A DNA stretch of 32,377 nucleotides, taken from Planctomycetota bacterium. GTDB taxonomy: Bacteria; Planctomycetota; Phycisphaerae; Phycisphaerales; SM1A02. Both the position numbers and the translations under genes were made by a program. Under the pieces are notes generated by a model, which saw only the letters and a program-made list of their open reading frames with translations, was not told the DNA's origin and searched no databases. The stretch is from assembly GCA_014381305.1 (NCBI GenBank), contig JACNLW010000033.1, positions 1 to 32,377 on the forward strand, given 5' to 3'. This document shows positions 16,366 through 28,159 of this stretch, piece after piece; positions within the stretch are counted from its first letter, which is position 1, and each line of letters starts with the position of its first letter.

Positions 16366-17829
16366 TTAGCGTACTCGCAATGGGGATTCAACGAGTTTAT
16401 GACCGATGGTTGTCACCGGACCAGCACCCATAATGACGATTAAATCACCGTCTCGTGCGATTTTGAGCAAGTGATCTACGATTTCATCGAAGTTATTGAT
16501 ATGTTTTGCAGATGCGCCCTGAGCGGTTAACCTGTCAACGAGATCTTGGGCAGAAACACGTTGTTGCTCGGCGATTGAATCGCGAACAAAATAAATGTGT
16601 GGCACGATGATGACATCTGCGCTTGAAAAACTTTGCGCAAAGGCATCGAGCAAAAATCGTGTGCGACTGTGCTGATGTGGTTGAAAAACACAGATGAGTC
16701 GTTTTGGAAGTTCCGCTGCGCGAAGTGCGTTGAGCGTGAGTTCAATTTCAGTTGGGTGGTGGCCGTAATCGTCATACACGATCGCACTGCCGTCTTTGCA
16801 TGGGAGTTCGCCAAGCCGTTGCAGTCTCCGATCGACTCCGCCGAAATTTTCGAGCGGTGCAATGATGTCGGTCCAGTCAACACCTAGATTTGCAGCATGT
16901 ATTGCTGCAGCTGCAGCGTTTAGTGCATTATGTGATCCGGGCATAGGATTGGTCCACTGAATGGTCCACATCCCATCTCGAAGGATACCAACTCGTCGGA
17001 CTGCTGGATCAAAAATGATTTGATAGTCAGCTTCAGGGTGAAAACCAAAAGTTTCTACCTTGCACGCAAGACTTGGAGTGATGAGTTGTCGATGCGCGTT
17101 GTCATGTCCGATGAGTAAATACCCACCATCATTTTCTGCTGGAATACGCATCGCAAATTGTTTGAATGATTCGATGATTGCATCGAGTGAACCGTATACA
17201 TCAAGATGATCTTCTTCGATGTTATGAATGAGTGCAGTTGTTGGATGGTGATCATGGAACGAACGATTGAATTCACAAGATTCACAAACCAAGATACCCT
17301 GTTCGTTTACTCGCCGACCACTTTCAATTGTTGAAGATCCAACTCGGCTTGATCCGCCAATTTGTTCGCACGTTGCTCCAACGATAAAACTAGGATCCAT
17401 TTCTGCGTGTAGGAGAATTGCACTGAGCATGGAAACGGTCGTTGATTTTCCGTGCGTACCAGCAAAACAGACCGCAGTTCTGCTTTGTTGTACTAGTCCG
17501 AGCATTTTTGCGTATGAAAGAACAGGGATACCAAGTTCTTCAGCAACGAGAATTTCTGGGTGTTCTTCTGCAATAGCAGCTGAAGCAACGACTGCGGACG
17601 TTGTTGGGTCGATGGACTGTCCGTCTTGGTTGTACTCGACATGTATTCCATCGCTCATGAGGCATTCAGTAATTGATGTTTTGGTTGAATCAGTGCCAGA
17701 CACAGAAGCACCAAGTTGACTCAATAGCCTTGCGAGGCCGCTCATGCCACAGCCACCGATTCCTATAAAGTGGAAGGTTTTTCCAGAAAGTTCATCGGCA
17801 TTGAAGGGGAAAGTGGGTGTTGGGCTCAT
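16366..17829 (-). CDS. murC: UDP-N-acetylmuramate--L-alanine ligase
   Basis: This 487-residue Mur ligase adds L-alanine to UDP-MurNAc. It has the N-terminal UDP-binding FIGIGGCGMSGLARLL, the ATP-binding AGTHGKSTTVSML, a central IHNIEEDHLDVY, and the C-terminal YDDYGHHPTEI and FQPHQHSRTRFL. The chosen ATG (17829) gives MSPTPTF; an in-frame TTG at 17853 adds eight residues. It is the first gene of the murC-murB-ddl-ftsQ-like-cls operon. TACAAT on the minus strand (17843-17838) ends 8 nt before the ATG, suggesting a leader of only a few nucleotides. Confidence 0.95.
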   Translation of the reverse strand: MSPTPTFPFNADELSGKTFHFIGIGGCGMSGLARLLSQLGASVSGTDSTKTSITECLMSDGIHVEYNQDGQSIDPTTSAVVASAAIAEEHPEILVAEELGIPVLSYAKMLGLVQQSRTAVCFAGTHGKSTTVSMLSAILLHAEMDPSFIVGATCEQIGGSSRVGSSTIESGRRVNEQGILVCESCEFNRSFHDHHPTTALIHNIEEDHLDVYGSLDAIIESFKQFAMRIPAENDGGYLLIGHDNAHRQLITPSLACKVETFGFHPEADYQIIFDPAVRRVGILRDGMWTIQWTNPMPGSHNALNAAAAAIHAANLGVDWTDIIAPLENFGGVDRRLQRLGELPCKDGSAIVYDDYGHHPTEIELTLNALRAAELPKRLICVFQPHQHSRTRFLLDAFAQSFSSADVIIVPHIYFVRDSIAEQQRVSAQDLVDRLTAQGASAKHINNFDEIVDHLLKIARDGDLIVIMGAGPVTTIGHKLVESPLRVR

Positions 17830-25571: not shown

Positions 25572-26504
25572 TTATCGTTGCGATGCTCGTTTTAATGTTG
25601 GATCAATGATATTCGGATTTATATTTGCACGGAGTCGTTTGGATAACTGATCCATTTCTAGTTGCTCCATTGCTAGCCTGCTCAATTGTTCCATCTCTTC
25701 TCGGACGTCGGCAAGGTGAACGGTTTGCACTGTTGGGGGGTCGGTCACAGTGATGAGCAACCAGCGGTCTTCGATTAATATTGGGGGTGAACAATCACCA
25801 ACTTCTAATGTTTGGATCAGTTCTCGAACTGAAGTTGGCCAAAGCGGATCTGCTGGGCTAATTGGTGCAACGACGCCGCCCATTGGACTGCTTGGATCAA
25901 TGGAGATGCGTTGTGCAACAGTTGCGAAAGATTCTCCATCCTGAATATTTCTTCGCGCTTGTGAAGCTTGGTCCAGTGTCGATGTAACGAGTATTTGTAC
26001 AGGGAATTTTGGGCCATGCAGTAAGGCAAACATTCTCTGTACAGAGGCATCTGTGATATTAATATTTTGTTGCACAAGTTTTCTTAACCCAGCATTTCTT
26101 TTACAAAGTGCTTGAAGGCGAATTTTTCCGTAGCCACGTTTTGCTAATATGAGATTGAGATCAGAAGCGGAATTGTTTTGGAGCGTGCGGAGAAGAACAT
26201 TTCTCTCGAAATTAATTTCTTCATGGGTTAACTCGGGTAAGTGATGTTGGTCGAACGCATGTTGAATTGCGCGGCTAAGCAACAGATCTTGGAAGATTTC
26301 ATCACCACTTGATTCAACTAAATGATCCCACATATCTTGCCGAGTTATTGATTGCCCAGAAACGATTGCAACTACTCTAGAAGGAGTTTTTCGATCTATT
26401 TTGACTTTATTTTGAAATGGTTTCGATGTTTTTTCTCCGCAACCGAGAAAAAATGCAAGAATGATCAAGACAAATACAGGTAGGTTGAGTATTCTGTGGT
26501 TCAT
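25572..26504 (-). CDS. PpiC/parvulin-type peptidyl-prolyl isomerase lipoprotein
   Basis: This 310-residue protein begins with a lipoprotein signal (MNHRILNLPVFVLIILAFFLGC), then a SurA/PrsA-like N-terminal helical region (ESSGDEIFQDLLLSRAIQHAFDQH) and a parvulin domain in the C-terminal half (ILVTSTLDQASQARRNIQDG, FATVAQRISIDPSSPMGG and VGDCSPPILIEDRWLLITV). It probably assists folding of exported proteins. Upstream in-frame codons (to 26717) lie on the complement of the zinc-ribbon gene and read as a shadow, so the ATG at 26504 is chosen. That ATG overlaps the ATG of the divergent neighbour by 2 bp. TATCCT (26520-26515) lies 10 nt upstream. Confidence 0.82.
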   Translation of the reverse strand: MNHRILNLPVFVLIILAFFLGCGEKTSKPFQNKVKIDRKTPSRVVAIVSGQSITRQDMWDHLVESSGDEIFQDLLLSRAIQHAFDQHHLPELTHEEINFERNVLLRTLQNNSASDLNLILAKRGYGKIRLQALCKRNAGLRKLVQQNINITDASVQRMFALLHGPKFPVQILVTSTLDQASQARRNIQDGESFATVAQRISIDPSSPMGGVVAPISPADPLWPTSVRELIQTLEVGDCSPPILIEDRWLLITVTDPPTVQTVHLADVREEMEQLSRLAMEQLEMDQLSKRLRANINPNIIDPTLKRASQR

Positions 26505-27204
26505 GGCTAAGCAAAGGATACTCGCCTGCCCACTGTGTGGGGAGACCCAATATGAACAATCCGTATGCAAGCAATGCGGGGGTAAGTTAGACGCAGATGG
26601 TCTTCTTTTGGCTGAAGCATCATTTGGTCCTTGGTTTATACGCGACGAGGACAATCCATTCGCGCCAGGAATGACGTATGACCTTCTCGTTGAAAAAATA
26701 GGAGACAAGAAGCTCAATCGATTTTCTCTTGTCAGAGGTCCGACGACAAGGCAATTGTGGATTCTTGCAAAAAGAGTACCGGGAATTGCACATCTTCTTG
26801 GTCGTTGCCATCGCTGTGATGAACATGTTGATCCTACTTCACTCGCATGTCATATGTGCGATGTTGCTTTTGGCGGATATCGAGATCGAGATTCTCTTGG
26901 GCTCGAAGAAAACAAATCGAAGAAAGTGGAAGCAAACGGAGTTTCTTCTTTTTTAGGTGACACAGCGATTTTTGAAACGTGCTCGGAGCCGCTCTCAGTG
27001 CCAATTCGAGCACAACCCAATACGGAGCGGGCAGAGAACAATAGTGACAATGACAGTGATGGTGCTGTACGTGACGAACCGGGAAGTCCTGCCTTTAGAG
27101 CACTCCAGCGCCACGTCAATAGTGTGCAGCGGACCAATCGGATCTTGATGGTAGCGTTGGGTGCCGTTTGCCTAATTTTGGTTTTAGTCATCGTGATGCG
27201 GTAG
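26503..27204 (+). CDS. Zinc-ribbon membrane protein with a GYF-like middle domain, function unknown
   Basis: This 233-residue protein has two treble-clef-like cysteine pairs: CPLC/CKQC (Cys9, 12, 22, 25) and CHRC/CHMC (Cys102, 105, 116, 119). Between them, residues 41-100 (GPWFIRDEDNPFAPGMTYDL, then RQLWILAKRVPGIAHLLG) resemble a GYF_2-type domain. An acidic, Asn/Asp-rich linker (about 155-195) leads to one C-terminal membrane helix (MVALGAVCLILVLVIVM), so it is a tail-anchored cytoplasmic protein. I do not recognise a function. An upstream in-frame ATG (26461) would add 14 residues antisense to the PpiC signal peptide. TATTCT (26490-26495) is 7 nt before the chosen ATG. Confidence 0.75.
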   Translation: MAKQRILACPLCGETQYEQSVCKQCGGKLDADGLLLAEASFGPWFIRDEDNPFAPGMTYDLLVEKIGDKKLNRFSLVRGPTTRQLWILAKRVPGIAHLLGRCHRCDEHVDPTSLACHMCDVAFGGYRDRDSLGLEENKSKKVEANGVSSFLGDTAIFETCSEPLSVPIRAQPNTERAENNSDNDSDGAVRDEPGSPAFRALQRHVNSVQRTNRILMVALGAVCLILVLVIVMR

Positions 27205-27925: not shown

Positions 27926-28159
27926 ATGCTAGTTCTATCACGCCATCGGGACGAAACAATTATGATCGGTGATGACATTGAGTTGACCATCGTGGATATC
28001 CGAGGAGACAAAGTTCGCATCGGTGTGAAAGCTCCATCGAATATACCAGTGCATCGAAAAGAAGTGTACGATGCGATTCGGCTTGAAAACGAGGGTGCCT
28101 CGGAGTTTAACCAGAGCGATCTGAAAGAAGTTAGACCGCCCCGTATCGCAGGAATGTGA
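27926..28159 (+). CDS. csrA: Carbon storage regulator CsrA
   Basis: This 77-residue RNA-binding protein is a clear CsrA: MLVLSRHRDETIMIGDDIELTIVDIRGDKVRIGV, then PVHRKEVYDAI with the RNA-contacting Arg. It binds GGA motifs near ribosome sites and represses or stabilises mRNAs. Its tail is slightly longer than in E. coli (61 residues). It follows fliW and is likely antagonised by FliW. The stop codon is 3 nt from the end of the convergent pgi gene, leaving no room for a separate terminator. Confidence 0.96.
   Translation: MLVLSRHRDETIMIGDDIELTIVDIRGDKVRIGVKAPSNIPVHRKEVYDAIRLENEGASEFNQSDLKEVRPPRIAGM

Follow-up and report, generated by a model that had tools for sequence, protein, structure and literature searches.

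The window, that is, the whole stretch of 32,377 nucleotides analysed here, is contig 22 of a planctomycete genome of 1.88 Mb in 114 contigs (G000). Two genes on its opposite strands begin within the same four bases. The coding sequences and their start codons are as follows:

25572 to 26504, minus strand: PpiC-like lipoprotein (peptidyl-prolyl isomerase type), 310 aa, with signal peptide MNHRILNLPVFVLIILAFFLGC; it matches PF00639 at 21.7 bits, exactly at the cut-off
26503 to 27204, plus strand: zinc-ribbon protein of 233 aa with a hydrophobic segment at the C-terminus and with CPLCG...CKQC followed by CHRC...CHMC; its match to DZR is below the cut-off
26502 to 26504, minus strand: start codon ATG of the lipoprotein, kept in all 13 genomes of the genus; in G005 and G004 the open frame has no upstream ATG, GTG or TTG
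26503 to 26505, plus strand: start codon ATG of the zinc-ribbon protein, ATG in 12 of the 13 genus genomes and ATT in the G007 pseudogene; in G002 and G004 the open frame has no upstream ATG, GTG or TTG

At 26500-26509 the window reads TTCATGGCTA (read directly; the wider sequence around 26503 is ...GAGTATTCTGTGGTTCATGGCTAAGCAAAGGATACTC...), and the CATG at 26502-26505 supplies one ATG per strand, with the A and the T common to both. A first-pass annotation had claimed that two start-codon bases are common to both genes, with the minus-strand ATG at 26504-26502 and the plus-strand ATG at 26503-26505, and this is what the letters give. A C before the ATG is not rare, being found at 108 of 355 ATG starts in the sampled genome.

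Pfam support for the lipoprotein and the zinc-ribbon protein is weak. Besides PF00639, the lipoprotein matches PF13145 below the cut-off and the NCBIfam peptidylprolyl isomerase models far below theirs, and its signal peptide contains what we take to be a lipobox. The zinc-ribbon protein scores 23.4 bits against DZR, under the cut-off of 27.3, and an NCBIfam search with it gave no match. A FliW gene lies downstream of the zinc-ribbon gene, and the ORF at 27926-28159 presumably encodes CsrA. In the 61 genomes searched (own included), the lipoprotein has a match in 57 and the zinc-ribbon protein in 49, and both proteins are encoded in 46. Reading the two match tables, we found the genes divergent and adjacent on one contig in 44 of these 46, the exceptions being G027, which has both on the same strand, and G015, where they lie on different contigs. 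Since divergent adjacency is this widespread, the pair is, judging by gene order, old.

The first-pass annotation had proposed that the overlap be looked for in related genomes, and there it recurs: the opposite-strand coding sequences overlap by exactly 2 bases at their 5′ ends in 12 of the 13 genus genomes, with G007 as the exception, counts over these related genomes not being independent. The lipoproteins have diverged, with 29-38% identity to that of the window in ten of the 12 other genus genomes (74% in G005 and 66% in G002), and the retention of the exact overlap despite this makes a chance overlap unlikely. In a lipoprotein tree (midpoint root; 6 of 14 inner branches starred), the genus falls into three main clades, G008 with G011, G000 with G002 and G005, and the other eight, and the overlap occurs in all three. 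In one genome, G004, both open frames lack an upstream ATG, GTG or TTG. By protein-level conservation and these upstream limits in relatives, both frames of the divergent pair qualify as real genes with the starts given here. The locus is thus a conserved and very compact divergent pair with a 2-base start overlap, built from known parts and retained in a single small-genome genus of the Phycisphaerales.

In G007 the zinc-ribbon gene is broken, with ATT for ATG, a frameshift and in-frame stops. The pseudogene occupies G007:C90:22405-22996; the lipoprotein frame there is open (316 aa), and the FliW start is at its usual place. The lipoprotein ATG and its TATCCT hexamer (see below) are kept, and within the CATG only the base exclusive to the start of the broken gene is altered. 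CAAAGGATACTC, of whose codons the broken gene has no further need, is intact, while the zinc-ribbon gene's own hexamer is TACAGT, and G at position 5 was seen in 1 of 77 sampled sites. This natural experiment, in which the signals of the broken gene appear to have changed and those of its partner not, is supportive only, because the pseudogene may be young, and its youth may be the sole cause of the retained bases.

Start signals were counted in a G000 sample of 479,665 bases with 394 usable starts, with genes called by a simple codon-usage script whose start choices are noisy. As in leaderless genes, hexamers of the form TANNNT peaked 6 nt before starts, at 35 of 394 compared to 5.06 per control position, and any TANNNT 5-10 nt before the start was found at 90 of 394 starts, compared to 21-39 in shifted controls. 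Among the 77 sites at 6-9 nt there is a preference for GGTACAATG, and TACAAT is the commonest hexamer (14/77). SD-like sites precede 116 of the 394 starts (control, 22), and since they are common alongside the TANNNT peak, leaderless-type and SD initiation both seem to exist in this genome. Two other genera of the order, G021 and G046 (loci L104-L131; 66-67% GC), have a TANNNT peak 5-9 nt before starts; at 5-10 nt, the hexamer precedes 17 of 226 starts in G021 (controls, 2-6) and 26 of 208 in G046 (controls, 2-8). The peak is not special to the genus, and its presence in these genera suggests that leaderless genes may be widespread.

Several other divergent pairs were noted. Among the 58 in the G000 sample, 19 gaps are 59 bp or less and five are negative, the three longer negative ones (-59, -49 and -27) being caller output as is. 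Gaps of 39, 39, 39 and 40 bp recur (L067, L077, L078 and L083), as if back-to-back leaderless promoters could come no closer than 39-40 bp; at L083 5653 and L077 5789, TANNNT is seen by eye 6-9 nt before both starts. In the window, genes starting at 17829 (minus) and 17916 (plus) diverge with 87 bp between called starts, each preceded by TACAAT, at a distance of 8 nt on the minus and 9 nt on the plus strand, an apparent case of back-to-back leaderless promoters. The only other -2 overlap among the 58 pairs, between genes for an ABC ATPase and a UbiD-like protein at G000:C2:2928, was rejected as a probable start-calling artefact, since relatives indicate a downstream start for the UbiD-like gene; it illustrates that an overlap given by a gene caller can be false. 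In this locus and its orthologues (L132-L144), AGTGTACCAT is present in 9 of 13 stretches and by eye contains overlapping TACCAT (plus) and TACACT (minus) hexamers, TACCAT being 6-7 nt before the likely UbiD-like ATG; the pair looks like a leaderless promoter serving both directions whose -10 elements overlap.

At the lipoprotein/zinc-ribbon locus, one such hexamer per strand can be assigned as a candidate promoter element:

26490 to 26495, plus strand: predicted -10 TATTCT of the zinc-ribbon gene, in lipoprotein codons 4-5; predicted start site at about 26502-26503
26515 to 26520, minus strand: predicted -10 TATCCT of the lipoprotein gene, in zinc-ribbon codons 5-6; predicted start site at about 26508

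The first-pass annotation had pointed to TATTCT 7 nt and TATCCT 10 nt before the respective ATGs, and both its coordinates and its distances were right. TANNNT stands before each of the two starts in 13/13 genus genomes; in the genes sampled, by comparison, codon-phased antisense TANNNT was counted at 1365 of 140332 positions (0.97%). The zinc-ribbon hexamer is TATTCT at 7 nt in three genomes, TACAAT at 7 nt in two, TACAAT at 13 nt in seven and TACAGT at 13 nt in one, so that nine relatives carry the commonest hexamer of the sampled sites. The lipoprotein hexamer, always 10 nt before the ATG, is TATCCT in 11 genomes and TACACT and TAAACT in one each. Some genomes have further TANNNT nearby (for instance TAGAAT at 6 nt in G004, TAGTAT at 10 nt in G002, TAGGTT at 16 nt in the window). 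No SD-like tetramer was found before either start in any of the 13 genomes, on either strand, and a search for sigma-70-type -35/-10 pairs on both strands of 26300-26750 found none (mean of shuffles, 0.6).

The annotation had further considered that both genes might be leaderless. If a leaderless gene is taken to have no SD site and a TANNNT at a distance of 6-9 nt from its start, this holds for the zinc-ribbon gene in the window and in the genus wherever its hexamer is at 7 nt (5/13 genomes, this one included); in the other eight the distance is 13 nt, beyond the peak at 6-9 nt, and would leave a leader of about 6 nt. It does not hold for the lipoprotein, which has no SD-like site and has its hexamer at 10 nt in 13/13 genomes, at the edge of the peak (8 of 394 sampled starts at this distance), predicting a leader of about 4 nt. 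In this genome, then, only the zinc-ribbon mRNA is predicted to be leaderless. In the bidirectional promoter class, polymerases leave back to back; here, by contrast, each hexamer lies within the opposite gene, which predicts promoters in face-to-face orientation and transcripts whose 5′ ends overlap by a few nt. The gap between the hexamers is 19 bp in the window and 25 bp where the plus-strand hexamer is at 13 nt.

The codons that contain the hexamers were compared for synonymous change, with 12 rows for the zinc-ribbon protein (the G007 pseudogene was left out) and all 13 for the lipoprotein. Two blocks of the zinc-ribbon gene stood out:

26512 to 26523, plus strand: zinc-ribbon codons 4-7, CAA AGG ATA CTC, which contain the hexamer of the lipoprotein gene; no synonymous change in 12 genus genomes
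26536 to 26541, plus strand: second constrained block, zinc-ribbon codons 12-13, TGT GGG; GGG in 66/66 and TGT in 55/66 pairs

Codon identity among same-residue pairs of the 12 intact zinc-ribbon genes was 66/66, 46/46, 45/45 and 66/66 at codons 4-7, even though, within the sample, no Arg codon is rarer than AGG (6.4%) and no Ile codon rarer than ATA (11.3%). Codons 2-9 form the top of 201 scorable eight-codon windows, with a score of 0.80, compared to 0.367 in later columns (46 to end), where 37% of comparable codon pairs match. Of 237 lipoprotein windows, columns 5-12 rank first (0.74, compared to 0.421 for columns 46 to end). G009 and G004 have Ser-Val or Ser-Leu in place of Arg5-Ile6, and with AGT and GTA/TTA as codons they still keep TANNNT; lipoprotein column 7 is GTA in all ten genomes having Val there, the same ten that carry TACAAT or TACAGT. 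Codons 12-13 are at -35 distance from the lipoprotein hexamer and could be a -35 region, although they are not TTGACA-like and form no sigma-70 pair. As a control, codons 2-17 of FliW scored 0.537 compared to 0.417 and 0.432 further in. Since the first codons of FliW are also more conserved, a general 5′ effect may explain part of the early-codon conservation, but it would not explain codons 4-7. The proposal of the first-pass annotation that each promoter lies inside the other's coding sequence thus draws support, as a prediction, from TANNNT in 13/13 genomes, the lack of SD-like sites and the synonymous constraint.

Taken together, comparison among the genomes brings out both starts, their conservation, and a TANNNT per strand at synonymously constrained early codons of the opposite gene, from which we infer that the hexamers are -10 elements of two face-to-face promoters. 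This reading was weighed against two others. One is that a start codon is misassigned and that a normal intergenic or nested promoter exists. The zinc-ribbon frame of the window does have an upstream ATG at 26461 and a TTG at 26485, six genomes have an in-frame upstream zinc-ribbon ATG within 15 nt (at -15 in five, at -9 in G008), at least three (G012, G006 and G010) have one in frame upstream of the lipoprotein, and the similar overlap at G000:C2:2928 proved doubtful. However, the -15 ATG is missing in G009, and a stop follows it in G004; a start further downstream would truncate the CPxCG ribbon or, on the other strand, the signal peptide of the lipoprotein. The first-pass annotation had named a gene starting elsewhere as the result that would speak against it, and this fails in relatives without an alternative upstream start (G004 for both genes, G005 for the lipoprotein, G002 for the zinc-ribbon gene). 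We consider a misassigned start very improbable.

The other reading places both promoters deeper inside the opposite gene, with antisense leaders of tens of nt, and ascribes the conserved codons to translation-initiation needs or to a regulator site. It would fit the lack of a canonical -35/-10 pair near either start, and the constrained block at zinc-ribbon codons 12-13 could belong to an operator. In G000 and G005 the hexamers also lie in an operator-like 9-base inverted repeat, GAGTATTCT ... AGGATACTC (G002 has TAGTATTCT), but the repeat is missing from the other ten genomes, and as an operator we rejected it, complete as it is in 2/13 genomes only. Deeper promoters with long leaders are also at odds with the absence of SD-like sites before both starts throughout the genus, and the bases that are conserved are those of TANNNT, the motif that this organism has next to its starts, while the middle positions vary. 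We regard this reading as unlikely, if less so than a misassigned start.

Outside the genus the two genes are separated. Of 17 loci tried for spacing, 12 were used and 11 were readable (L056 has no anchor); L046 (no anchor), L051 and L054 (genomes without a lipoprotein match), L059, and L060 (the G027 locus, with both genes on the same strand) were left out. Nine of the readable genomes belong to other genera of the same family, and their spacers up to the lipoprotein start measure 41, 47, 52, 52, 52, 53, 54, 54 and 90 bp. The G021 spacer is taken as 52 although an in-frame ATG at -2 exists, because 52 fits the others and a normal-length signal peptide; G022 has additional in-frame ATGs at 61 and 79. 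In two genomes of another family the spacer is about 95 (G056) and 105 (G048, where an ATG at 131 is also open); the count there runs to the eighth codon ahead of CPxCG, which in these two is not an ATG. TGTCAA, which is TTGACA on the lipoprotein strand, was seen in 9 of the 11 loci (110 bases upstream, by eye; not in G021 or G030), and this suggests a conventional -35 outside the genus that would have been lost within it. The genus genomes are small, 1.6-2.1 Mb compared to 2.0-5.2 Mb in the other family members searched. Most likely the overlap is what compaction has made of a divergent promoter region similar to the 41-90 bp spacers of the other genera. This is the simplest origin, and starts that need no leader would permit it; the intergenic region could shrink to nothing because no Shine-Dalgarno site or long leader would be needed. 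Once formed, the arrangement would be locked, since a change in the common A or T would damage both starts.

The explanation that we consider probable therefore combines a conserved CATG overlap, hexamers serving as -10 elements of two face-to-face promoters, genes competing for initiation, and an origin by compaction. If transcription starts about 7 nt past the hexamer, the 5′ end of the zinc-ribbon mRNA would be at or beside the AUG (in one clade, about 6 nt before it), the lipoprotein mRNA would have about 4 nt ahead of its AUG, and the two transcripts would overlap over some 6 nt. Face-to-face promoters that have been studied are usually tens to hundreds of bp apart, unlike the predicted start sites here, which are about 6 bp apart; the footprint of RNA polymerase is some 70 bp. 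Since the predicted start sites nearly touch and the promoters would face each other, RNA polymerase would be expected to occupy one promoter at a time, so that the genes would compete for initiation. The first-pass annotation, largely right otherwise, had suggested that the overlap may couple the expression of the two genes; the predicted geometry speaks for competition more than for co-expression.

Whether such competition does anything for the cell is a separate matter. The overlap and nested promoters may be real and yet a by-product of compaction, with occlusion having no regulatory role and both genes expressed constitutively, an account compatible with the anatomy of the face-to-face reading. 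Small genus genomes, the many short or negative divergent gaps (19/58 at 59 bp or less, five negative) and the spacers of other genera, which keep the divergent pair and so indicate that pairing does not require overlap, all fit it. Nothing decisive stands against it, as exact retention is expected from lock-in alone just as from a regulatory role, and we lean towards it. The alternative is a minimal cis switch, in which two near-leaderless promoters, each set in the other gene's first codons, would face each other with touching start sites, force a choice on the polymerase and give exclusive expression without a regulator. We hold this to be doubtful, though with some chance of being right, and the same goes for any regulatory role of promoter competition.

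The pair is like known short divergent overlaps, in which two opposite-strand genes overlap at their 5′ ends (PMC2174442). The text and tables of that survey give 331 divergent overlaps in 58 species, of which 274 are 5 nt or longer, leaving 57 shorter than 5 nt by subtraction of the two tables; they describe such overlaps as strongly under-represented and ascribe their rarity to the room needed by promoters and ribosome sites (PMC2174442). Unlike these, both starts here are fixed by genus-wide conservation, and candidate promoters can be placed in the partner's codons. Many bacteria, such as Deinococcus and Streptomyces, have leaderless genes in which TANNNT lies about 12 bp ahead of the start codon and no SD site is used (PMC3160421, PMC12340547), and for Planctomycetes a study with one genome points to leaderless and/or S1-type initiation (PMC5397173). 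The present genes resemble the Deinococcus and Streptomyces ones in having TANNNT near the start and no SD site, but they belong to a planctomycete, the spacing is 7, 10 or 13 nt, and the hexamers lie inside the coding sequence of the opposite gene. As in bidirectional bacterial promoters of pseudo-symmetrical sequence, where the binding of one polymerase prevents that of another, one DNA stretch would serve two genes (PMC12825309). As in convergent promoters with transcriptional interference, which face and can occlude each other (PMC6593788), the pair here is opposed, by predicted geometry. Among the matches listed in a literature search of partial coverage, none described divergent genes with overlapping starts whose promoters face each other from within the partner gene.

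As comparative anatomy the arrangement is solid, and the mechanism is offered as a proposal from sequence. The pair indicates how the limit of room on divergent overlaps can be met: a start of the leaderless type requires no more than a -10, whose six bases fit inside the codons of the opposite gene. In G007, nature has supplied an experiment on the signals of a broken gene versus those of its partner. If the cis switch were true, it would pick either an exported folding lipoprotein or a zinc-ribbon membrane protein encoded upstream of fliW-csrA. For the order as a whole, the locus provides comparative evidence for leaderless-type initiation in Phycisphaerales.
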